Assembly: GCA_947497145.1 (NCBI GenBank)
Contig: CANMFQ010000016.1
Location: forward strand, 1 to 64,000
Origin: an uncultured Flavobacteriaceae bacterium
GTDB taxonomy: Bacteria; Bacteroidota; Bacteroidia; Flavobacteriales; Flavobacteriaceae
DNA length: 64,000 nucleotides
Reading direction: 5' to 3'
Part shown: one piece after another, positions 5,044 to 57,816 of the stretch
Layout of the letters: each line of letters begins with the position of its first letter
Position numbering within the stretch: position 1 is the first letter of the stretch
The notes under the pieces: model-generated
What the model was told of the DNA's origin: nothing
Databases searched by the model: none
What the model saw: the letters and a program-made list of their open reading frames with translations, nothing else
Made by a program: the position numbers and the translations under genes

Positions 5044-5640
5044 ATGCATATTTTAGAAAAAGTAACAGCGTACTATACCGAACCACATCATTTTAAAGCT
5101 GGTATTGAAACGCTTAGAAAATTAGCCCTACAAACAGGGCTAGCGGAAACATATAAATGGAATTTTCCCACCTATACCCTGGCAGGTAAAAACGTATTGG
5201 CGATATGTAAATTTAAGAAACACTTTGGCATCTGGTTTTTTAACGGTGTTTTTTTAGAGGACAAAAACACTGTTTTAGAAAATGCCCAAGAAGGGAAAAC
5301 ACAAGCCATGCGCCATTGGAGGTTTTACAACAATGAAGACATTGATGTAAAATTTGTGTTGGCATATATGAATGAAGCAGTAGAAAACCAAAAAAATGGA
5401 AAAGTTTTCAAACCGAACAAAAACCAAGAAAAACAAATAGTCGTATCTCAACTATTACTTGAAGCTCTTGAACAACAGAGCCTAATAAAAAGTGCTTTTG
5501 ATAAACTTTCTTCAAGTAAACAAAGTGCTTATGCAGCCTATATTGAAGATGCCAAACAAGAAAGCACCAAACAAAGGCGTTTAAAAAAAATTCTTCCTAT
5601 GATAGCTAATGGGCTGGGGCTTAACGATAAATATAGATAA
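5044..5640 (+). CDS. YdeI/OmdA-family protein (DUF1801 plus C-terminal helical domain)
   Basis: A 198-residue protein starting at the ATG at 5044. An upstream in-frame TTG at 5023 adds seven residues not expected for the family. The N-terminal half has the DUF1801 fold (YKWNFPTYTLAGKNVLAICKF region). The C-terminal half is the helical OmdA/YdeI domain with a basic KQRRLKKIL motif (bacteriocin-protection YdeI/OmpD-associated group). Members are small cytosolic proteins of unclear biochemistry. It ends near a bidirectional terminator shared with the convergent yajC operon. Confidence 0.8.
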   Translation: MHILEKVTAYYTEPHHFKAGIETLRKLALQTGLAETYKWNFPTYTLAGKNVLAICKFKKHFGIWFFNGVFLEDKNTVLENAQEGKTQAMRHWRFYNNEDIDVKFVLAYMNEAVENQKNGKVFKPNKNQEKQIVVSQLLLEALEQQSLIKSAFDKLSSSKQSAYAAYIEDAKQESTKQRRLKKILPMIANGLGLNDKYR

Positions 5641-5716
5641 CACCCTAGCCTAAAACACCACAAGACCACATTTATTTCTTTTTCATCAAGCAATACCAGT
5701 ATAAACGAGGTACAAA

Positions 5717-5746
5717 AAAAGCCCCGATAAATTTATCGAGGCTTTT
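5717..5746. terminator. bidirectional terminator between the YdeI-like gene and yajC
   Basis: A near-perfect inverted repeat, AAAAGCC-c-CGATAAA / TTTATCG-a-GGCTTTT, with A-rich and T-rich flanks so that it can work in both directions. It lies between two convergent genes. Confidence 0.85.
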
Positions 5747-5767
5747 GTAACTATTATTTACAGCGCA

Positions 5768-6055
5768 CTATTTTGTAGCTGTAGTATTAAGTTTTTTACT
5801 CATTTCTAAGGATAACGCTGAACGATCAAACTTCAGCTTTCCTGCCATAGTTTCAATAACACAAGAATTATCTTTGTCATTTAACTCAAAAATTTTACCA
5901 TGCAGTCCGCTTTTTGTAATTACTTTATCGCCTCTTTTTAATCCTTCAAGAAACTTTTTTTCTTCCTTTTGCCTTTTTCTTTGTGGCAAAATCATAAATA
6001 CAAAAAACACAACAAAAATGGCAATCATAAACGGCCATTGACCCAATCCTTCCAT
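5768..6055 (-). CDS. yajC: preprotein translocase subunit YajC
   Basis: A 95-residue single-pass membrane protein. The helix at about 8-24 ends in LPQRKRQKEEKK, followed by the soluble GDKVITKSGLHGKI segment that identifies YajC. YajC associates with SecDF and SecYEG at the inner membrane. It is the last gene of the nusB-DUF1573-yajC operon (27 bp after DUF1573). secDF itself lies elsewhere in the window at 49-52 kb. Confidence 0.93.
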   Translation of the reverse strand: MEGLGQWPFMIAIFVVFFVFMILPQRKRQKEEKKFLEGLKRGDKVITKSGLHGKIFELNDKDNSCVIETMAGKLKFDRSALSLEMSKKLNTTATK

Positions 6056-6082
6056 ATGAAACTAGTATAAACTTATATTAAA

Positions 6083-6556
6083 TTATTTTGTTGGTCCAAC
6101 TGGCGCAGCGGCCTTAGGATTTACAAAAGCTTTTATTCTTAACAACTCAGAGCCTTTCTCTGTATTTGCTTTAACTGTAATTGTTTTGGTTACTTGGTTT
6201 TGACCAGAACCATTAAATTTCACAACCAACTCACCTGATTCACCAGGGGCAACAGGCGTGTTTTTTGGATATTCTGGTACCGTACATCCACAACTACTAG
6301 TAGCGTCAGTAATAATTAGTGGTCCATCACCAGTATTGGTAAATTTAAATACTGTTTCTTGTGGTGTACCTTGCTCAATAGTTCCAAAATCGTGTTCGGC
6401 TTTCTCAAAGGTCATTACTGGAATCTGCTTTGCAGCTTCATCTCTTTCTGCAGCAACAGCTACATTGTCTGCCTTAATTTTGCTTTTCGCATCTTCTTTA
6501 CAAGAAAAGAAAGTCAAAAAACCTACAAGTCCTAAAGTTAAAATTGCTCTATTCAT
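6083..6556 (-). CDS. DUF1573 lipoprotein
   Basis: A 157-residue DUF1573 protein. It has a lipoprotein-type signal (a hydrophobic stretch ending FFSC near residue 19) and one Ig-like domain with the family's hallmark TFEKAEHDFGTI and SSCGCTVPEYPK segments. DUF1573 domains are related to ASPM/SPD-2/Hydin-type beta sandwiches and are common in Bacteroidota envelopes. The function is not established. It sits between nusB (38 bp) and yajC (27 bp) in an arrangement seen repeatedly in flavobacteria, so it is probably co-transcribed with them. Confidence 0.88.
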   Translation of the reverse strand: MNRAILTLGLVGFLTFFSCKEDAKSKIKADNVAVAAERDEAAKQIPVMTFEKAEHDFGTIEQGTPQETVFKFTNTGDGPLIITDATSSCGCTVPEYPKNTPVAPGESGELVVKFNGSGQNQVTKTITVKANTEKGSELLRIKAFVNPKAAAPVGPTK

Positions 6557-10349: not shown

Positions 10350-12875
10350 ATGAAAAAAACATTCTTCTTTATAGTTGCATTTACCATCCTTCAGAACGTT
10401 GTATCGCAAGAAGCTGTCGATTTGAATTATTACCTACCGCAGGATATCACCTATGACAAATCAATACCTACACCCAAAGAAATTATTGGACACGAAGTAG
10501 GTGAATGGCATGTAACACATGACAAACTTATGTTTTATATGCAGACTTTAGCTAAAGCTTCTAATCGCATTAGTATAGAAAATAGAGGGGTAACTTTTGA
10601 AGGAAGACCCATACTACTACTCACCATAACTTCACCAAAAAATCATCAGAATTTAGAACAGATACGTGAAAACCATATAGCATTGACTGAAAACGCAGCT
10701 AGTGACACAACGGTTGATAAAATGCCCATTGTCGTATACCAAGGTTTTTCAATTCATGGTAATGAGCCCAGTGGTTCAAATGCCGGCCTTGCCTATGCCT
10801 ATTATTTAGCTGCTGCACAAGGTGATGAAATTGAAAACTTACTTGATAATATGGTCATTTTAATGGATCCTTCTTTTAATCCTGATGGTTTACAACGCTT
10901 TGCATATTGGGCAAATACCAATAAAAATAATAATTTGGTTGCCGATAGCAATGACCGTGAATATCATGAAGTATGGCCCGGTGGACGAACCAATCATTAT
11001 TGGTTTGACATGAACCGCGATTGGTTACCTGTTCAACTACCCGAGAGCCGTGCACGTATTGCTAGTTTTCATAAGTGGCTACCAAATATATTGACCGATC
11101 ATCATGAAATGGGCAGCAACTCTACCTTCTTCTTTCAACCAGGAGAACCCAGCAGAGTACACCCGTTAACACCAAAAATGAATCAAGAGCTTACCGCTGA
11201 AATAGCCACCTATCATACGAAAGCATTAGATAAAATAGGTTCATTGTATTATTCAGAAGAAGACTATGATGATTATTTTTACGGAAAAGGATCTACATTC
11301 CCCGATGTAAATGGCAGCATAGGCATACTTTTTGAGCAAGGCAGCTCTAGAGGACATATTCAAGAAACAGAAAACGGACTACTCACCTTTCCTTTTACAA
11401 TAAGAAATCAGTTTACTACCGCACTGTCGACCATTGAAGCGGCAAAAAACATGCGTACTAAAATCTTAACGTATCAAAAAAACTTTTATGTAAACGCTCG
11501 TAATGCTGCTGCTAAAAGTAAAACTAAAGCCATTGTTTTTGGGGATCATAAAGACGCCGCAAAAACATGGCATTTGGCTGAAATTCTGAATAGACATCAA
11601 ATAAAATTTCATGAATTAGCCAATGATGCCACCATAGCAGGAAAAAAATACACCAAAAAAAATAGCTATGTGGTGCCTATGAATCAGAAAAACCACCGTC
11701 TAATTAAGGCCATGTTTGAAAAACGAACCACCTTTACCGACAGCATTTTTTATGATATTTCTGCATGGACCTTCCCCCTAGCCTTTAATGTAGATTATGC
11801 AGAAGTGACCACGCTAAACAACGCAGGACCAGAAATCACAAATTTTGAACCTTTAACAGGTAGCGTTAGCGGCAAAACCAACTACGCCTATCTTTTTGAA
11901 TGGAATGAATATTACACACCTAAAGCCTTAAACAAAATTCTTGAAAAAGGTTTGCGAGCAAAGGTTGCCAAATCACCATTCACCATAGAGAACAAATCAT
12001 ATGACTATGGCACCATTATGATTCCTGTTCAAAATCAACTATTAAACACCGATGAACTTCATGAGTTTTTAGTTGCTGTAGCAAAAGAAAGTAAACTTCA
12101 AATTACTGCTTTAGCAACAGGGCTAACTAAAGGTATTGATTTAGGAAGTAATGAATTTGACCCCATAAAAAAACAAAAAATCGCCATTTTAGTTGGCAAT
12201 GGCATACGCCCCTATGACGCTGGTGAAATATGGCACTTACTTGATACGCGCTATGATATAGAAGTAACCAAAATAGATATGGGTTATTTTAATTCTGTAG
12301 ACTTAAGCGCATATACTGACATCATAGTAACTACACCAGCTAAAAGCATTCAAAACAATAAAAACGCCGACAAACTCAAAACTTGGGTTAAAAACGGAGG
12401 CACTTTAATTGGGTATAAAACTGCTGCTACATGGTTTGACAAAAGTGAACTTATGAAACTCACGTTTAGAAAAGACTCTTTAGTAGCGAAAAATATCGCT
12501 TTTGATAAAAAAGAGAAATTTTTAGGAGCACAGGTTACTGGCGGAGCCATATTTGAAGCAAACGTAGATCGTTCTCACCCTATAAATTATGGGTACAAAA
12601 ACAATAATATAGCCCTTTTTCGTAATTCAAACATTTATATTGAGGCTGACAAAAACAGTTATAACAACCCCATCCAGTACACAAAAAACCCTCTTTTAAG
12701 TGGTTATATTTCTAAAAGAAACAGTGCTTTAATAAAAAACACGGTTCCATTTAAAGTAAATCGTTTAGGAAAGGGTAAAGTCATGATATTTACCGATAAT
12801 ACTAATTTTAGAGCTTTTTGGTATGGCACTAACAAATTACTCATGAATGCTATTTTCTTTGGGGATATGATGTAA
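10350..12875 (+). CDS. secreted M14-family zinc carboxypeptidase
   Basis: An 841-residue protein with a signal peptide (1-19, cleaved after VVSQ). The peptidase M14 domain occupies about residues 40-380. Zinc ligands are visible as His136 and Glu139 in the HGNEPSG motif and a His in LTDHHEMG. FDMNRDW carries the Asn-Arg that binds the substrate carboxylate, and GILFEQGSSRG supplies the catalytic Glu. The remaining 450 residues form a C-terminal region containing a ThuA/glutamine-amidotransferase-like stretch (IAILVGNGIRPYDAGEIWHLL). Such large M14 proteins are common in marine flavobacteria and probably digest extracellular peptides. It has its own terminator. Confidence 0.9.
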   Translation: MKKTFFFIVAFTILQNVVSQEAVDLNYYLPQDITYDKSIPTPKEIIGHEVGEWHVTHDKLMFYMQTLAKASNRISIENRGVTFEGRPILLLTITSPKNHQNLEQIRENHIALTENAASDTTVDKMPIVVYQGFSIHGNEPSGSNAGLAYAYYLAAAQGDEIENLLDNMVILMDPSFNPDGLQRFAYWANTNKNNNLVADSNDREYHEVWPGGRTNHYWFDMNRDWLPVQLPESRARIASFHKWLPNILTDHHEMGSNSTFFFQPGEPSRVHPLTPKMNQELTAEIATYHTKALDKIGSLYYSEEDYDDYFYGKGSTFPDVNGSIGILFEQGSSRGHIQETENGLLTFPFTIRNQFTTALSTIEAAKNMRTKILTYQKNFYVNARNAAAKSKTKAIVFGDHKDAAKTWHLAEILNRHQIKFHELANDATIAGKKYTKKNSYVVPMNQKNHRLIKAMFEKRTTFTDSIFYDISAWTFPLAFNVDYAEVTTLNNAGPEITNFEPLTGSVSGKTNYAYLFEWNEYYTPKALNKILEKGLRAKVAKSPFTIENKSYDYGTIMIPVQNQLLNTDELHEFLVAVAKESKLQITALATGLTKGIDLGSNEFDPIKKQKIAILVGNGIRPYDAGEIWHLLDTRYDIEVTKIDMGYFNSVDLSAYTDIIVTTPAKSIQNNKNADKLKTWVKNGGTLIGYKTAATWFDKSELMKLTFRKDSLVAKNIAFDKKEKFLGAQVTGGAIFEANVDRSHPINYGYKNNNIALFRNSNIYIEADKNSYNNPIQYTKNPLLSGYISKRNSALIKNTVPFKVNRLGKGKVMIFTDNTNFRAFWYGTNKLLMNAIFFGDMM

Positions 12876-17821: not shown

Positions 17822-18210
17822 TTTTTTTTAAACTGAACTATAGCCCATAAAAAGAAAGCTATACTTTGAACTTGTGGTGACCTTTGTTTAAAACCGACAA
17901 TTTCGGACTCTTATACCATAATGAAGTTATTTTTTTGTTACATAGCCATAGCTCCCGAACGCAACGATGATAAATTAAAGTGAAAAAGGCATAATTTGCG
18001 AGTAAAAAAGTTGTTCATTTTTTTAACCGCTCAAAAGTATCTTTCTTCAAATTATATCAACACGCAGCCGCACTTTAGCAAGCTTCTAGGCTACCTTGGC
18101 ATAGCCTAATACGCTAATAAGGTTAAAATGTTCATTATAATGTTGATAAAACAGGTTTCAAATACACATAATTTAGCATTACATTTGTAAATTGACTAGC
18201 AAATTCCGTT
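17822..18210. other. 389-bp upstream region of the fur-purA unit
   Basis: No gene is seen. A TACATTTG at 18180-18187 matches the TAnnTTTG -7 consensus and lies 23 bp before the Fur-family ATG, making it the likely promoter core. No clean TTG lies at the expected spacing. No strong terminator hairpin for rel is visible. Confidence 0.5.
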
Positions 18211-18666
18211 ATGGGTACAAATAAAAATCAAGAGATTGTAAAAAACGTTTTCACTGCTTTCTTAGAAGAAAACGGACATCGAAAAACACCTGAACGCTAC
18301 GCGATACTCCAAGAAATTTACGAGAGTGACGACCATTTTGATATAGAATCACTTTATATCAATATGAAAAACAAAAATTATCGCGTAAGTAGAGCTACCC
18401 TATACAATACCATAGAGCTTCTTATGGATTGTAAATTAGTACGTAAGCATCAGTTTGGCAAGAACCAAGCACAATATGAGAAGTCTTATTTTGACCGTCA
18501 GCATGACCACGTTATTTTAACCGATACAGGTGAAGTAATGGAGTTTTGTGACCCTCGTATACAATCGATAAAAAAAACAATTGAAGAGGTATTTGATATA
18601 AAAATCAGCAACCATTCTCTTTATTTTTATGGTACCAAAAACAAAAAAGAAAACACAAACAACTAA
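18211..18666 (+). CDS. Fur-family transcriptional regulator
   Basis: A 151-residue Fur-superfamily repressor. The N-terminal winged helix is clear ([16 protein letters not shown], then the recognition helix [19 protein letters not shown]). The dimerisation domain retains [17 protein letters not shown], giving the His-rich metal site, but where classical Fur has a CxxC zinc knuckle this protein has LTDTG and only one Cys nearby, so the structural zinc site is absent or different. It could be Fur, Zur or PerR-like; I cannot choose. It lies 12 bp upstream of purA, implying co-transcription. Confidence 0.9.
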
Positions 18667-34571: not shown

Positions 34572-34667
34572 TAACAACTCAAAATTTTGAATACAACGCT
34601 CAGGTTCGCTGTTCAAATATACTTAACACTAGATAGCAAACCCCTAGGAATAAAATAAAAAGAGACA

Positions 34668-34744
34668 GTATAACATATCGGCAACGCATTAAGTCAACAG
34701 CGCCTTTAGGTGGGTTCGTACCAACCGTGTCAAGGCTTAGTTAT
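34668..34744 (-). repeat. attC-like repeat, type 2, at the 3' end of the Fic gene
   Basis: Bounded by GTATAAC (34668-34674) and GTTAT (34740-34744), so TAAC/GTTA boxes face each other. The Fic stop codon (TAA on the minus strand, 34737-34739) lies inside it. The inside shares a long conserved core with 37446-37519: TATCGGCAA, GTCAACAGC, CTTTAGGT and CTTAGTTAT at matching positions. No strong inner stem is visible. Confidence 0.55.
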
Positions 34745-35849
34745 GAGCATCAGGCTGTTTTATCATCTCATAATTAGTACTTCTTCCTCCAGATGTTTCC
34801 TGTTTTAAAATTCCTTTTGAAATTAAATCTTTAATATCTCTAAGAGCAGTATCAGTTGAGCATTTTGTGATTTTAGCCCATTTCGAACTTTTTAATTTTC
34901 CTTCAAATCCATCTAAGAGTTTGTTTAGCATTTTTCTTTGTCTGCTATTTAGTTCAGTTTCTTTATGATATTCCCAAAAATCGGCTTTGTTAAACACTTT
35001 TTCTAGTGTAGATTCAGTAGCTTGTAATGAGTGATATAAACAGTTTAAAAACCATTCTAACCACTCTGTAATATCCCCTGTGCTGTGCTGAACTTTTTGC
35101 AAAATAGAATAATACGTTTTCTTCTCAGTTAAAATTTGATTGGATAAGCTATAAAATCGAAGAGAACTTTGTTCAGATTTAGCCAATAATAAATCGGTTA
35201 AGGCTCTTGCTATTCGACCATTTCCATCATCAAACGGATGTATTATTATAAACCAAAAGTGAGCTATTGCAGATTTAAGAACTAGGTCAATATCCTTTTC
35301 CTTATTTATCCAATGAAGCAATGCATTCATTTCTTTTTGCACCTTTTCGTGATGAGGCGCTTCAAAGTGAATTTTTTCTTTCCCCATAGCTCCAGATACT
35401 ACTTGCATTTCTCCTTTTCTATAAGACCCTGTTTCAATTTTATGCATTCCACTATAGCCAGAAGGAAACAACGATGCGTGCCAACCAAATAATCTTTCAT
35501 TAGTTAGATTTTTGTCATAATTTCTAGTTGCATCTAACATCATTTCTACAACACCTTCCACATCTCTACCAGCGTGAACCATTCCTGAAGTTTCTATACC
35601 TAATTTTTGAGCTATAGAAGAACGAACTTGTTCATAGTTTAAAAATTCTCCTTCAATTTCTGATGATTTTAAAACATCAAGGGTCAATGTTGACAAATAA
35701 GTTTCTTCTTTAAGCGTGAACCCGATACTACTCATTTGCCCAAATATTTTACCCTGCAGGTGTCTCACTTTTCCTAGAATGTTTCCAATTTTCTTTTCAT
35801 TCCAAATAAAGTTAGGCCATTGTGTATATTGATAGATGTATTTTGGCAT
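34737..35849 (-). CDS. Fic-family protein (DUF4172 plus Fic domain), self-inhibited type
   Basis: A 370-residue Fic protein, a family that usually transfers AMP from ATP to target hydroxyls. It has an N-terminal DUF4172 region (KYIYQYTQWPNFIW), an inhibitory helix motif SSEIEG (62-67, matching [S/T]xxxE[G/N]) that blocks ATP in class II Fic proteins, then the active site HPFDDGNGR (204-212). A substrate-clamp hairpin precedes it (VSGAMGKEKIHF). The C-terminal winged helix (about 300-370) could bind DNA. No antitoxin gene is adjacent, fitting self-inhibition. It sits inside the repeat-flanked minus-strand array. Confidence 0.93.
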   Translation of the reverse strand: MPKYIYQYTQWPNFIWNEKKIGNILGKVRHLQGKIFGQMSSIGFTLKEETYLSTLTLDVLKSSEIEGEFLNYEQVRSSIAQKLGIETSGMVHAGRDVEGVVEMMLDATRNYDKNLTNERLFGWHASLFPSGYSGMHKIETGSYRKGEMQVVSGAMGKEKIHFEAPHHEKVQKEMNALLHWINKEKDIDLVLKSAIAHFWFIIIHPFDDGNGRIARALTDLLLAKSEQSSLRFYSLSNQILTEKKTYYSILQKVQHSTGDITEWLEWFLNCLYHSLQATESTLEKVFNKADFWEYHKETELNSRQRKMLNKLLDGFEGKLKSSKWAKITKCSTDTALRDIKDLISKGILKQETSGGRSTNYEMIKQPDAHN

Positions 35850-35927
35850 ATGCGGTAAATAGCAAACTTATTCGCAGCAAATATAAGGAGAATAATCGAT
35901 CTAATTACCGCAAAGCTGTTTATCTAC

Positions 35928-36081
35928 TTCTGACTAACGTAAAATTAAGTTATTGAAAATCAACATTTTAAAAATAGTCAAGTTTTTTATTTTTTATTCA
36001 AATTTCTTACCACAAGTTACTCATTTTTACGTTAGCCAACGTACTGAAGTTTTTGAGGTCTATGAGAGATTGCCACTAACG
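35928..36081 (-). repeat. 154-bp direct repeat, copy 1, containing an attC-like inverted repeat
   Basis: By hand alignment this is about 85% identical, without gaps, to 37046-37199. It runs from TTCTGACTAACG to CTAACG. Its ends carry an inverted repeat, CTAACGTAAAA (35934 on) and TTTTACGTTAG (about 36026-36036), and it finishes exactly at the CTAACG (36076-36081) that also ends the hairpin next to it. Confidence 0.75.
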
Positions 36082-36141
36082 TTCAGTATAACAAGCGTTG
36101 CCTGCCGATAGGCGGCAATGATTTGTTATACATTGTTATGC
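36076..36141 (-). repeat. attC-like hairpin at the 3' end of the 178-aa gene
   Basis: Nested boxes: outer TAAC (36077-36080) / GTTA (36135-36138), inner GTATAACAA (36086-36094) / TTGTTATAC (36123-36131), then TTGCC (98-102) / GGCAA (114-118) with an unpaired base at 36103, GCC/GGC and a GATA loop. Asymmetric spacers (5 and 3 nt) separate the boxes. On the minus strand it begins GCATAAC, containing the stop TAA of the 178-aa ORF, and ends in GTTAG. This is the layout of integron attC sites. Confidence 0.65.
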
Positions 36142-36672
36142 TCTTTTATTATTATTCAAATTCTCTTGTTTCCACTTTTCAAAATTCCGTTTAGAATCTT
36201 CCAATTCAGACCTGATAGTTGGCCAATCAGATTTATTACAAATTCCGATTTTTATAGAATCATAGAAGTCAATTGGTAATTTGTCAAACAGTTCAGGGAT
36301 ATTTGGCTCACATTCAACAAAAACTTCACAATGGTGTCCCAATGGAAATTGACTTAAATAATTATTTCTTAGATATAAAATGTGCGAAACGGTTAAGTCA
36401 CAATTCTCAGTCTGATTAAGGTTCTCATAGTCAAATACTAAATTGAATTTTACAGGAGTGTATTCTTCTATTGGAGTATGCACAGATACAAGCCTTATTA
36501 CATTGTTATTTATAAGGTCTTTTTCTAACTGTTCAATTTTTTTAGATTCTTCAATAGTTAATTCATTTCTTTCGGAAATTTTGTTCTTTAGAACTTTTGA
36601 AAGCCTACTTCCACTTTTGATTAAAGCGTCTTTGGAAAGAATTCTATCTATTGCTAAGTATCTCAATTTCAT
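36136..36672 (-). CDS. hypothetical protein (cassette-like gene)
   Basis: An unrecognised 178-residue, soluble, acidic protein without signal peptide or membrane segments. The first 60 residues are helical and charged; the rest has mixed strands (IRLVSVHTPIEEYTPVKFNLVFDYENL) and a helical C-terminus with several Trp and Asn. Its stop codon lies inside the attC-like hairpin. It follows the 110-aa ORF by 23 bp on the same strand, and both lie between the two 154-bp repeats. Confidence 0.6.
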   Translation of the reverse strand: MKLRYLAIDRILSKDALIKSGSRLSKVLKNKISERNELTIEESKKIEQLEKDLINNNVIRLVSVHTPIEEYTPVKFNLVFDYENLNQTENCDLTVSHILYLRNNYLSQFPLGHHCEVFVECEPNIPELFDKLPIDFYDSIKIGICNKSDWPTIRSELEDSKRNFEKWKQENLNNNKRA

Positions 36673-36695
36673 GTGTTATTAGAACTGGCTATTTT

Positions 36696-37028
36696 CTATT
36701 TAAGCATCCAAACCATAATATTTTCAAGATGGAACATTGGAGCAAGTATTTTATGTTTTTTGTCAATATTGTCAACTATGAACCACTCATCAGAGTTAAT
36801 TAAGTGAGTGAATTTTATTTCTACATTGTCAACATGGTATTGCATTGCTTCTTCATCATTTTTGTCAACTAAAATCGAGTAATCTATAGATGACTGTATA
36901 TAGTCAATCAGTTCACTTCTTAATTCTTTGTGAATCTCATAAATTGAATCCGACCTAGGCCATTCAATCTGAGATTCACTTAGAAATGCAACTAGCTCAT
37001 TTTGAAAAAATAATTTTTTAGGTATCAT
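36696..37028 (-). CDS. hypothetical protein (first gene of cassette-like unit)
   Basis: An unrecognised 110-residue acidic protein. It is soluble, with helices and a Trp/Asp-rich C-terminal half (SDEWFIVDNIDKKHKILAPM). There are no signal or membrane segments. It starts 18 bp after the upstream 154-bp repeat copy on the minus strand, the position expected for the first ORF of a cassette, and it is 23 bp upstream of the 178-aa ORF. Co-expression is likely. The function is unknown. Confidence 0.58.
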   Translation of the reverse strand: MIPKKLFFQNELVAFLSESQIEWPRSDSIYEIHKELRSELIDYIQSSIDYSILVDKNDEEAMQYHVDNVEIKFTHLINSDEWFIVDNIDKKHKILAPMFHLENIMVWMLK

Positions 37029-37045
37029 CTATCTGTTGCTTTCAA

Positions 37046-37199
37046 TTCTGACTAACGTACAATTAAGTTGCTAAAAATTAGCATTTTAAAAATAGTTAAA
37101 TTTCTCATTTTTTATTCAAATTTCTTACCACAAGTTACTCAATTTTACGTTAGCCTACTTACTAAAGTTTCCGAGATCTATGGGGGATTGGTGCTAACG
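37046..37199 (-). repeat. 154-bp direct repeat, copy 2
   Basis: The partner of 35928-36081. It shows the same end pattern: TTCTGACTAACG at one end and GTGCTAACG at the other, and an inner CTAACGTACAATTAAGT / ACTCAATTTTACGTTAG inverted repeat (15 of 17 matching). Beyond the terminal CTAACG the two copies have unrelated flanks. Confidence 0.75.
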
Positions 37200-37431
37200 A
37201 CTCCGTTATCGAGTAAAAAAAGGGGATTTCACCACAGTGGACGTAAGTGATAGTACCTATCTTAAGGCTCTTTTTGTACAAATCTATACGACAACATTGA
37301 TTTGATAAAATCACCAATAACAGAACAAATAGGGAAATTAGCGGGGTGACCTATTCTAACCTAAGAAAATATTCATTACTAAAACTTGCCCTCAAGGTAA
37401 TCACGGTTCCTAAAAAACAACACAAACGTAT
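37200..37431. other. gene-free stretch between repeats
   Basis: With the two repeats beside it, this makes a 483-bp region (37029-37511) without a gene. I see no ORF, tRNA or terminator here. It could be decayed cassette sequence or the upstream part of the cassette unit. Confidence 0.5.
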
Positions 37432-37520
37432 AATAACCCTAGTAGTATCGGCAAAGTAGCCAGTTCAGTCAACAGCATCTTTAGGTTGATTCATGCCGAC
37501 CACTCGAACGCTTAGTTATT
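37432..37520 (-). repeat. attC-like repeat, type 2, at the 3' end of the 257-aa gene
   Basis: AATAAC (37432-37437) faces GTTATT (37515-37520). The stop TAA of the 257-aa lipoprotein (37512-37514) is inside. The core TATCGGCAA...GTCAACAGC...CTTTAGGT...CTTAGTTAT is shared with 34676-34744. Confidence 0.55.
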
Positions 37521-38285
37521 GGTTGTAGTTTTTATGGACTTCCCTCTGAGATTTCCAATATTTTGCAACTCGATTGATTCGTATATGCGATAGCCTTTTT
37601 CTATTCCAGTATTGTTTGCTTTTTGTATGAAGTTGGCCACTTGTTGATCACATATTGATTTGTCCGCAAAAATTCTAAAATGTATTTCGTCTTTTAGTTT
37701 GTCCATATTGAATTGATCCGTTTGGTCAAACTTATTAGCAAATTCTCTCAGATCAAAAATTAAAGAGTCCAAAGAATTTCCATGCTCCGTAAGTCCAATG
37801 AGCCTGTTTTTGTCCTTTTTAATATAAATTTTGAATCCATAATCAGAAGCCAAATCAATATGCCTGACTTTTAAATCAATGGGAAGATTAAGCTTGATTC
37901 TATTTTTTTTGCTCAAAAAATCAATATAACTATCGGCTCTAAGAAAGGTGAAATTATTTACTCCAATCGAGACAGGAACCTCACAAAAAAGCGTATCTTT
38001 TTCTTTAGACAATACATAGTGTGAAATTATTTTTCTCGTTTTGTTTACAGTAAATGGGTGTTTATAGGTGAAATCGAATTCAAAAATGGAGTCGTTTGCT
38101 TTCCAATCAACATTTTGAGCATATACTTCCCTAAATATTAAACTATCAGGGTAAAATTCTATTCTAGTATAACCATCGTTCTCAATGCAGTACCACTTTC
38201 CTAGTAGGTTCTTTTCATGGTTATTTTGTGCGCAAGAGCAGAGCATTAAAAAACAAATCAAATATGGTAGAAATTTTATCTTCAA
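37512..38285 (-). CDS. lipoprotein of unknown function
   Basis: A 257-residue lipoprotein: the signal ends at the lipobox LMLCSC (Cys18), giving a membrane-anchored protein. The first third resembles small lipocalin-like domains (LLGKWYCIENDGYTRIEFYPDSL). The C-terminal half shows mixed alpha/beta sequence without catalytic motifs. The last four residues before the stop are within the repeat at 37432-37520. It is not recognised. It is the most upstream ORF (on the minus strand) of the cassette-like array. Confidence 0.6.
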   Translation of the reverse strand: MKIKFLPYLICFLMLCSCAQNNHEKNLLGKWYCIENDGYTRIEFYPDSLIFREVYAQNVDWKANDSIFEFDFTYKHPFTVNKTRKIISHYVLSKEKDTLFCEVPVSIGVNNFTFLRADSYIDFLSKKNRIKLNLPIDLKVRHIDLASDYGFKIYIKKDKNRLIGLTEHGNSLDSLIFDLREFANKFDQTDQFNMDKLKDEIHFRIFADKSICDQQVANFIQKANNTGIEKGYRIYESIELQNIGNLRGKSIKTTTNN

Positions 38286-38452
38286 AAGTATTACTAACTA
38301 TTATATCTCCATACTCAAGCACATATATTCCTTATTTAGCATTACTAATCTAAGGAATTTCTACTGCTTTTAAAAGTGTTTATTGCTATATGGAGCTGAA
38401 TTTTATGTGCGCTAAAGTTTTCAACTTAGCAGCCATACGTATTGACTACAAA

Positions 38453-39121
38453 TTACCCTTCCTTTTTTGTAGCCCGCAACATTTCGCGCTTTCCTGGTGG
38501 GCCGGGCAAACGCTCCACTACAAAACCTACAGCCTGCATGGCTCGCCGCACACTACCTTTTGCTGCATAGGTAACTAGTACTCCGTTATTTTTAAGGGCT
38601 TTGTACATTTTAGCAAAAACAACTTCGGTCCATAATTCGGGTTGTACCCGAGCACCAAAAGCATCAAAATAGATAAGGTTAAAGGCAGCAACATCATCAA
38701 TTTTCATAAAATCTTTTTGCTGTTTGCATAATGAAAAACGAGTTGTAATTGCCGTGTGTTGCTCCCAAGGCGACTGATGCATTTGTAAAAACTGCTCTTG
38801 AAAATCTGTTGCCTGTAATTCAGCAATATAGTTAAGCTGTTGCAATTCTACTTCCGTGATTGGGTATGCCTCGACACCTCGATAGGTAATATTTAACGCT
38901 CGCTTTTCTGCCTCTAAAAGGGTAATTAATGCATTGAGGCCAGTACCAAAACCTATTTCAAGAATAGCAACATCGCTACCAGAGAACAAGGCCAACCCCG
39001 ATTTTATAAACACATGATACGCTTCTTGAATAGCACCGTGCTTGGAATGATACTGCTCATCCCAATCAACAATATGGATGGTTTTTGAACCATCAGAAGT
39101 AGTAATTATTTTTCGTTCCAA
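38453..39121 (-). CDS. mnmD: tRNA mnm5s2U methyltransferase, single-domain MnmD
   Basis: A 222-residue SAM-dependent methyltransferase equivalent to the N-terminal half of E. coli MnmC. It adds the methyl of mnm5s2U34 to tRNAs. Motifs: the SAM loop ILEIGFGTGLNAL, VEAYPITEVEL, FNLIYFDAFG (the family's DAFxP-like motif), the NGVLVTYAAKGSVRRAMQAVGF strand and a C-terminal LPGPPGKREMLRA. It lacks the FAD domain of MnmC, typical of Bacteroidota. It starts 1 bp after the DUF4920 gene ends, so the two are a unit. Confidence 0.93.
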   Translation of the reverse strand: MERKIITTSDGSKTIHIVDWDEQYHSKHGAIQEAYHVFIKSGLALFSGSDVAILEIGFGTGLNALITLLEAEKRALNITYRGVEAYPITEVELQQLNYIAELQATDFQEQFLQMHQSPWEQHTAITTRFSLCKQQKDFMKIDDVAAFNLIYFDAFGARVQPELWTEVVFAKMYKALKNNGVLVTYAAKGSVRRAMQAVGFVVERLPGPPGKREMLRATKKEG

Positions 39122-56700: not shown

Positions 56701-56774
56701 GGCCTCGTGGCGCAACTGAATAGCGCATCTGATTACGGCTCAGAAGGTTACAGGTTTGAATCCTGTCGAGGTCA
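56701..56774 (+). tRNA. tRNA-Arg (anticodon ACG)
   Basis: A 74-nt cloverleaf: acceptor GGCCTCG / CGAGGTC with one G-T pair and discriminator A. The anticodon loop is TTACGGC with a TCTGA/TCAGA stem, and the T arm is ACAGG-TTTGAAT-CCTGT. The CCA is not encoded. It is followed by its own terminator and then by a truncated integrase, suggesting that it served as an integration site. Confidence 0.97.
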
Positions 56775-56777
56775 CTA

Positions 56778-56811
56778 AAAACCCTGTAAGTAGAAATATT
56801 TACAGGGTTTT
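56778..56811 (+). terminator. terminator after tRNA-Arg
   Basis: A 12-bp stem, AAAACCCTGTAA / TTACAGGGTTTT, followed by CTTTTTCTTTT. Confidence 0.88.
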
Positions 56812-56835
56812 CTTTTTCTTTTAAAACGTAACTTC

Positions 56836-57816
56836 ATGGTCCAATTGAGATTTAAAAACCAATTGATTACAGCCCAATTAATAAAAGCAACATATTTAGG
56901 TTTTGATGGTGACTCTAAAACTCTTTTAGAACTTATAAAATACCATAACAATAAAATTTCAAACACCCTTGCTGTAGGTTCTATTCGAAATTTCAGCATT
57001 ACTGAAAACTATTTTATCAAGTTTATAGCTAAAGAAAAAAATACAAACAACATTTTTCTTAAAAAATTAGATTATAAATTCCTTTGCGATTTTGAATGTT
57101 ATTTAGCCAATTACTGGCCCAAAGGTCATCCAAAAGGTATGAGCCAAAATACGATTATGAAGCATATACAAAGGTTGAGGAAAATTGTAACCTTAGCATA
57201 TCACATGGAATGGATAGATAAAGACCCATTCGTTAGATAGAAACCTGTTTTTGAAAAAAGAGAAAGAGAATTTTTATCGGGATATGAATTACAGAATATG
57301 GAGTTTAAAGAGTTTGAGTTAAAACGGCTAGAACGTGTAAGAGATTTATTTATTTTCAGCTGATATACTGGCATCAGTTATATTGATGTTATGAATTTAA
57401 CGCAGGATAATATTTCTTCAGGAATTGATGGAAATAACTGGGTTTTCACTCATAGACAGAAAACACAAACAAAAGTGAAAATCTCACTTTTGCCTAAAGC
57501 TCAGAATCTTATCAATAAATACAAACTTCATCCGATGACAATGGATACTGGTACACTTTTCACAAAGATTACCAATGAAAAACTAAATACTTACCTAAAG
57601 GAGGTAGCCTATAGATGTGGCATTAAAAAGAACCTAACCTTTCATATGGCCAGACATACTTTTGCAACTACTATAACTTTAAGTAATGGTGTGCTTATTG
57701 AAACTGTTTCAAAACTTTTAGGACATACCAAAATTACAACTACTCAAATTTATGCAAGGGTATTAGAAAGAAAAGTTAGTAGTGATATGATGATGTTAAA
57801 AGAAAAACTTAAATAA
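56836..57816 (+). pseudogene. tyrosine recombinase (integrase) pseudogene
   Basis: One reading frame from 56836 to 57816 encodes most of a flavobacterial phage-type integrase, broken by TAG (57238-57240) and TGA (57361-57363, where the family usually has Cys in FxFSCYTG). The N-terminal SAM-like domain is present, but the first 90-100 residues of the usual 400 are missing. The catalytic part is well kept: HMARHTFAT (His and Arg), LLGHTKITTTQIYARV (His and the Tyr nucleophile). It lies directly after tRNA-Arg on the same strand. It is probably the remnant of an integrated element. Suppression is conceivable but unlikely. Confidence 0.9.

Follow-up and report, generated by a model that had tools for sequence, protein, structure and literature searches.

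In this study, we examined a 64,000-nucleotide stretch of DNA from an uncultured Flavobacteriaceae bacterium (assembly GCA_947497145.1, contig CANMFQ010000016.1, positions 1 to 64,000; this whole stretch is called the window here), and in it a cluster of four minus-strand open reading frames (ORFs) separated by repeat-like sites at 34668-38394. Integrons are known for the spread of resistance genes, and the original prediction, made from the letters of the window, had described the cluster as an integrase-less array of integron cassettes with four attC-like recombination sites. We find this description right in kind and wrong in detail. Judged from sequence, the cluster very probably consists of decayed cassettes, without a recombinase, of a Bacteroidota class of integron in which a Xer-like recombinase gene stands beside an attI-like insertion site; it would be a decayed outlier of a wider cassette system.

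The cluster in the window

The cluster and its right flank hold the following features.

34668..34744, minus strand: type-A repeat, divergent shortened copy; contains the stop codon of the Fic ORF; 73-76% identical to copies in 14 further genomic stretches
34737..35849, minus strand: cassette ORF of 370 aa with DUF4172 and Fic domains (Pfam)
35928..36081, minus strand: 154-bp block read as a cassette leader, copy 1; starts CG|TTAGTGGCA-A
36076..36141, minus strand: predicted attC site of a short type (GCATAAC-AATG...TTATACTGAACG|TT); contains the stop codon of the 178-aa ORF
36136..36672, minus strand: cassette ORF of 178 aa, an orphan
36696..37028, minus strand: cassette ORF of 110 aa, no Pfam or NCBIfam match
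37046..37199, minus strand: 154-bp block read as a cassette leader, copy 2; starts CG|TTAGCACCA-A
37202..37339, minus strand: degenerate 3' end of a group II intron, in the position of an attC site, directly 5' of the next cassette's G|TT
37414..37521, minus strand: type-A repeat with the stop codon of the 257-aa ORF; 76-85% identity to copies in 17 other stretches
37512..38285, minus strand: cassette ORF of 257 aa, lipoprotein-like (read by eye)
38296..38394, minus strand: 3' half of a type-A site, the right border of the cluster; 77-89% identical to 16 further genomic stretches
38453..39121, minus strand: mnmD-like methyltransferase gene in a conserved right flank (ilvE-DUF4920-mnmD), kept in 13/13 genus relatives

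All four predicted ORFs are present (370, 178, 110 and 257 aa). Of the types assigned to them, Fic holds (DUF4172 plus Fic), and the other three ORFs have no Pfam match over the cut-off. Each of the three sites said to contain the stop codon of the preceding ORF does contain it. The 154-bp block is duplicated as described (35928-36081 and 37046-37199, 86% identity), with CGTTAG, on the coding strand, as the start of both copies. At E 1e-10, no match to the 178-aa ORF was found in the other 295 of the 296 family genomes searched; it has a weak, below-cut-off match to the end of Csx8.

When bottom-strand folding is considered, one of the four proposed attC-like sites is convincing. The site at 36076-36141 is more stable on the bottom strand than on the top strand (-15.1 vs -12.9 kcal/mol; z -4.5 against mononucleotide shuffles); its hairpin is short, its left box holds the stop codon, and it has counterparts in four other genomes (G004, G007, G012 and G014). 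The two type-A repeats stand in the position of an attC site and do not have its fold (z +0.6 for 34668-34744 and -0.4 for 37432-37520). The 154-bp block, for its part, was considered as an attC site and rejected: with z of -0.6 and -1.0, both copies are more stable on the coding strand, the reverse of attC, and the first bases of the block depend on the cassette. Twelve copies occur in the 5.1-Mb draft genome from which the window comes (the source genome), two of them in tandem on contig 27, and the sequence downstream differs from copy to copy. Eleven of the 12 carry GTT (once GTC) and a few variable bases ahead of the shared part; the copy on contig 8 has none of these. We read the block as a probable leader common to several cassettes.

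The piece at 37202-37339 has no Rfam match in the window itself; it is 76-83% identical to five other stretches of the genome, two of which overlap the 3' ends of RF00029 introns. Across the window, Rfam finds one tRNA only, and the cluster is empty even at E up to 1. A plasmid search with the cluster matched Fic/DUF4172 genes alone. We also sought a clean empty site at mnmD in relatives and found none in the stretches past mnmD (about 1.3 to 8 kb), because gene order past mnmD varies among them. Cassette exchange would have lost support had the same genes stood at a fixed site in all relatives; none of the four ORFs occurs in the stretch fetched past mnmD in the 13 genus relatives.

Cassette arrays, hairpin sites and an attI-like junction

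The evidence that carries our interpretation comes from elsewhere in the source genome and from other Bacteroidota, where cassettes stand head to tail with matched ends of the form G|TTN7-A ... C-N7AA and with long imperfect hairpins between them. In better-kept arrays of the source genome, the G that opens a cassette is followed by nine bases that are the reverse complement of the nine bases 5' of that cassette's own site, as in TTAGCGGTA ... TACCGCTAA. Of 43 sites in this genome, 17 match in eight or more of the nine bases, vs 27 of 1806 control pairs made of unlike sites (binomial p 3e-20). Tolerating one or two additional A in observed and control pairs alike gives 19/43 and 54/1806. At most matched ends, pairing extends past an A(start)/C(end) step by a further 3-4 pairs. 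When this step is not demanded, position 10 is A/C in 117 of 135 matched ends; the pooled control for this position contains the same cassettes on the other strand (GT, 114), and therefore only its remaining classes are background.

Such cassettes are concentrated on one side of a recombinase gene that is described in the next section. Under a strict rule (G|TT, nine pairs, the A/C step and two or more of three further pairs), 60 cassettes are counted on the array side of 13 loci with close copies of this gene, 11 of these loci having at least one; the controls give 4 (reversed sequence) and 2 (other strand). A scan of GTDB genomes gave 151 recombinase loci, of which 80 were retained, several sharing genomes with the 13; these include Maribacter, Arenibacter, Winogradskyella, Zobellia, Tenacibaculum, Chryseobacterium, Epilithonimonas, Moheibacter, Flavobacterium, Balneicella, Proteiniphilum, and genomes of Chitinophagales and Cytophagales. 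They hold 134 strict cassettes in 377 kb, with 11 and 6 in the same two controls; on the gene's far side, both strands of 737 kb together yield 20. A wider family was sampled with 12 loci (34-54% identity) picked mostly for nearby attC matches. Here cassettes lie 3' of the recombinase gene and in the same direction in 10/12 (2 to 19 cassettes, with up to 19 in 20 kb); the exceptions are L253, with cassettes on the divergent side, and L260, whose two long matches may be due to chance. The first cassette begins 27-135 nt past the recombinase stop codon in 6/12, and the reversed control gave 7 cassettes over all 12.

As in integrons, cassettes carry a single ORF in fixed orientation with a short leader. 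Over 236 cassettes, the medians are a core of 668 nt, a single sense ORF of 186 aa and a leader of 25 nt; the sense ORF is the longer in 192, an ORF of at least 50 aa is present in 195, the stop codon lies 15 nt 5' of the box end, and GTT is followed by A or G in 227. One ParD/ParE-like pair was recognized by eye. Within arrays there are 56 whole-cassette matches, some of which end no more than 2-3 nt from G|TT on both sides; in one duplicated cassette, 100% identity extends 2 nt beyond G|TT on either side. Other such matches extend into neighbouring units or conserved attC ends. Mini-cassettes of about 182 nt are repeated in a single array at L250 (genome G283; 5549-6332, 11157-11639 and 18113-18294).

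The sites between cassettes have the form of attC, that is, imperfect hairpins with R and L boxes and little conservation of sequence. Most of the 76 distinct sites that separate adjacent cassettes fall into two length groups, one of 117-127 nt (55 sites) and one of 179-188 nt (16 sites). A covariance model was made from 36 sites (43 sequences were kept and 42 aligned, divergent or badly aligned ones being left out), and 11 of the 16 pairs in its consensus stem show compensatory double changes. Positions that read as A·C mismatches in the top-strand hairpin become G·T wobbles in that of the bottom strand, and at two positions the wobble is retained in 30/36 and 35/36 sites. The bottom strand is the more stable in 73 of 75 sites by a mean of 4.1 kcal/mol with DNA parameters (465/750 shuffles; p 3e-13), and in 72 of 75 with RNA parameters (vs 568/750 shuffled).

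The arrays also begin at a recurrent junction. On contig 27 of the source genome, the array starts CATATATTTGTG|TTGTAGCC, divergent from the recombinase gene, and the attI-like stretch upstream of it is found twice more in the genome, joined at this junction to another cassette. This attI-like site lies on the divergent upstream side in 13/13 close loci and is followed by TT in 12. The first cassette with matched ends lies 132-184 nt from the recombinase start in 31/80 loci; in many others the contig ends early. Over the 15 pairs formed by six Arenibacter loci, mean identity is 93% in the 60 nt before the junction and 52% in the 60 nt after it (100% vs 62% for L164/L166). This arrangement points to an attI beside the recombinase gene, at which cassettes would be inserted.

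A Xer-like recombinase beside the arrays

The best match to an integron integrase in the source genome, far below the cut-off, is a tyrosine recombinase on contig 27 (45162-46136, minus strand) that ends short of the catalytic tyrosine. Of the 296 family genomes, 189 match this protein at E 1e-30, and 13, the source genome included, have a match that spans nearly the whole query with an identity of at least 59%. That the window lacks intI, as predicted, holds for the whole genome, which has no match to IntI (TIGR02249) over the cut-off; nor has any of 298 family genomes. The same search across the phylum, which served as a positive control, found IntI over the cut-off in 105/395 genomes, one match being from the same class and the rest listed as of the same phylum.

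Because the defining domain of the integrase is missing, we do not call this enzyme IntI. The spacing between the KGxDR and HxLRHS motifs is 63 residues in 80/80 close members and 63-64 in 11/11 wider ones, 105 in 12/12 IntI, and 69 and 71 in two Xer-like proteins of the source genome. Aligned with VchIntIA (2a3v), the recombinase profile matches in two pieces and skips residues 206-243, and one close member scores 194.5 bits with TIGR02249, for which the cut-off is 265. When 16 of the 80 close members are placed in a tree with 12 IntI, 11 of these from one family, the close members form one group (100/99) and IntI another (100/100); wider members do not resolve as one group, and the Xer branches are long. 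A structure model (mean predicted local distance difference test, pLDDT, 80.9; predicted template modelling score, pTM, 0.49) has no weight in the argument. The accessible text of a classification of tyrosine recombinases (PMC8138268) describes the IntI insertion as essential for integron function, and as not fully conserved within the integron-like subgroup; because of the latter, the recombinases described here may already sit unnamed in that subgroup.

The recombinase and the sites tend to occur together. The attC covariance model has matches at E 1e-3 in 259/296 family genomes. When this is set against recombinase matches at 1e-30, 183 genomes have both, 6 the recombinase only, 76 attC only and 31 neither (Fisher p 3e-10); attC matches are absent in 6/189 genomes with a recombinase match and in 31/107 without.

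Invading elements, interpretation and alternatives

In the accessible text of PMC7923331, group IIC-attC introns are described as inserting at the R'' side of attC, in the bottom strand at TTGT/T and opposite to the cassettes. In 411 kb of the source genome, 9 of 13 matches to an intron 5' end abut attC arms on the bottom strand, at the R'' side and opposite to the cassettes. In all nine the intron 5' end falls at TGT|GTGTG on the bottom strand, the preceding bases being TTGT in five and GTGT in four. Of the remaining four matches, two are found inside type-A sites in the opposite orientation and two elsewhere. Matches to RF00029 or RF02001 (Rfam) confirm introns in 5 of 10 loci searched. By analogy, introns in these arms may be considered an independent witness that the sites are attC. 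Unlike group IIC-attC introns, the copies in the source genome are mostly fragments, the two inside type-A sites have the other orientation, and Rfam gives RF00029 and RF02001 only.

The type-A pattern (TAACTAAGC[CG]TTCG...) has 57 matches with up to 3 mismatches in the source genome vs 2 for a backward control. The repeat at 37414-37521 is among the 57 with zero mismatches, and that at 34668-34744 is too divergent for the pattern; at up to 2 mismatches, 2 of the 13 genus relatives (G001 and G003) have matches. Type-A repeats at L046 and other loci start exactly at the expected attC start, keep their first 40-110 bases constant and continue variously, into a group II intron in either direction, an IS91-like element or other sequence. 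An element named IS91-like by eye, at about 6100 in L039 and on contigs C63, C14 and C8, has its end GGAGTTGCTGCGCAGACTCC, in which one base varies, directly 5' of a cassette's CG|TT, as if it inserted next to cassette junctions.

Taken together, platform, junctions, matched ends, hairpin covariation, the strand bias in folding, and duplicated cassettes ending at G|TT suggest a system that would work like an integron save for the missing domain of its enzyme. An intact member has an attI-like site next to the gene of a tyrosine recombinase that is Xer-like and lacks the IntI-specific domain. Circular cassettes, each with one ORF and a hairpin site, would be formed and inserted at this site at G|TT, the recombinase acting on the folded bottom strand of attC, which G·T wobbles (A·C on the other strand) would make the preferred one. 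The cassettes in the window may have been inserted elsewhere than at the platform or may have stayed behind; a premature stop would have deprived the source genome of its one close recombinase, and the sites in the window would later have been invaded by group II introns and other elements. More broadly, we consider it probable that Bacteroidia have integrons of their own, present in most Flavobacteriaceae, whose recombinase recombines folded attC without the domain held to be essential, and in which G·T wobbles replace extrahelical bases as the main strand cue.

The system shares with integrons a recombinase beside a conserved insertion site, head-to-tail single-ORF cassettes, a G|TT junction with GTTR, sites in the form of imperfect hairpins that fold better as the bottom strand, and cargo that includes an orphan ORF and the ParD/ParE-like pair. 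It differs from them in its recombinase, which lacks the IntI-specific insertion and branches apart from IntI; in its end boxes, where 9 bp of pairing are followed by an A/C step and more pairs; in the A·C/G·T asymmetry along the stem; and in the place of the attI-like site, which is 130-190 nt upstream of the recombinase gene where that gene is divergent, or behind it in the wider family, where gene and array run in the same direction.

Several observations weigh against this interpretation. The support for recombination is computation on sequence alone. The cassettes in the window have unmatched starts and ends, unlike better-kept cassettes of the same genome; because of this mismatch we call the cluster decayed, and we read the unmatched ends as decay or as hybrid cassettes. 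A cluster of attC sites lacking integron-integrases (CALIN) should hold at least two attC, and the window has a single folding one and no match to the attC covariance model, which does match elsewhere in the genome; the type-A sites, common in the genome, were unfolded in both window copies tried. The only recombinase match of the source genome at 1e-30 is the shortened copy, 76 genomes have attC matches and no recombinase match at that threshold, and genome size may drive part of the co-occurrence. The bases after the attI-like site are not TT in L134 (AT) and in several of the 80 loci (for example, L143 and L172). Sharing of cassettes between loci is scarce: with the 116 of 236 cassettes that have a defined 3' border as queries, and those above 3500 nt dropped, 60% cover was reached in 5 matches, of which one has G|TT at both ends.

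One alternative is that the cluster is an ordinary CALIN of classical integrons, its attC sites moved in by an IntI encoded elsewhere. The cluster resembles a CALIN in having cassettes and no recombinase of the kind described here, IntI is common in other classes of the phylum, and sites with GTTR boxes and hairpins, single-ORF cassettes and a bottom-strand folding bias would all follow. The absence of IntI matches from the 298 family genomes, the start of arrays at an attI-like site beside another recombinase, and cassette ends that pair over 9 bp, an A/C step and 3-4 bp make this explanation improbable in our view. We give about as little credence to the idea that dispersed gene-side repeats were spread by group II introns and IS91-like elements, with no exchange of cassettes. 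The unfolded type-A copies speak for it, as do the intron and IS91-like pieces in many sites of the source genome, and because such pieces occupy these sites, the transposon that the original prediction had set against cassette exchange is excluded in part only. Cassette-specific matched ends, contiguous arrays of up to 19 units, duplications of units and, in one genus, differing cassettes behind a nearly constant attI-like site are not what such a spread would leave. Least likely of the three, and very improbable, is that these are modules of the Xer/dif type, moved by housekeeping XerC/XerD. The recombinase has XerA, XerC and XerD among its best sequence matches and shares their catalytic core. 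It differs from them in about 80 more N-terminal residues (close members), linkage to arrays and a separate clade, and the source genome's own Xer-like proteins fall on a separate long branch of the tree. Moreover, dif sites are short, and the sites here are long asymmetric hairpins beside a dedicated recombinase gene.

Should the Bacteroidota integron with a Xer-like recombinase be borne out, the IntI insertion would not be the sole route to the use of folded single-stranded sites, and direct tests of strand choice, and of the origin of integron recombinases from Xer-like enzymes, would become possible. Searches for the usual integron enzyme do not count this recombinase, and if 259/296 Flavobacteriaceae genomes carry such attC, a large pool of cassettes goes uncounted. 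Salinibacter ruber is named as the Bacteroidetes genome with a complete integron in the accessible text of the IntegronFinder 2.0 paper (PMC9024848). Neither there nor in the accessible text of a 2008 survey (PMC2426708), two reviews (PMC8618304 and PMC8946536), a study of archaeal integrons (PMC9668308), the recombinase classification (PMC8138268) or PMC7923331 is the system described; in full-text searches of the open PMC library, none of the titles and abstracts among the matches listed describes it. Preprints and most subscription papers lie outside this library, and a description may be in print elsewhere.

Elsewhere in the window, two adjoining ORFs (134 and 141 aa; 56701-57816) beside a tRNA gene (56701-56774) look like the remains of a disrupted tyrosine recombinase gene from an integrated element, and the second of them has a weak match to TIGR02249.

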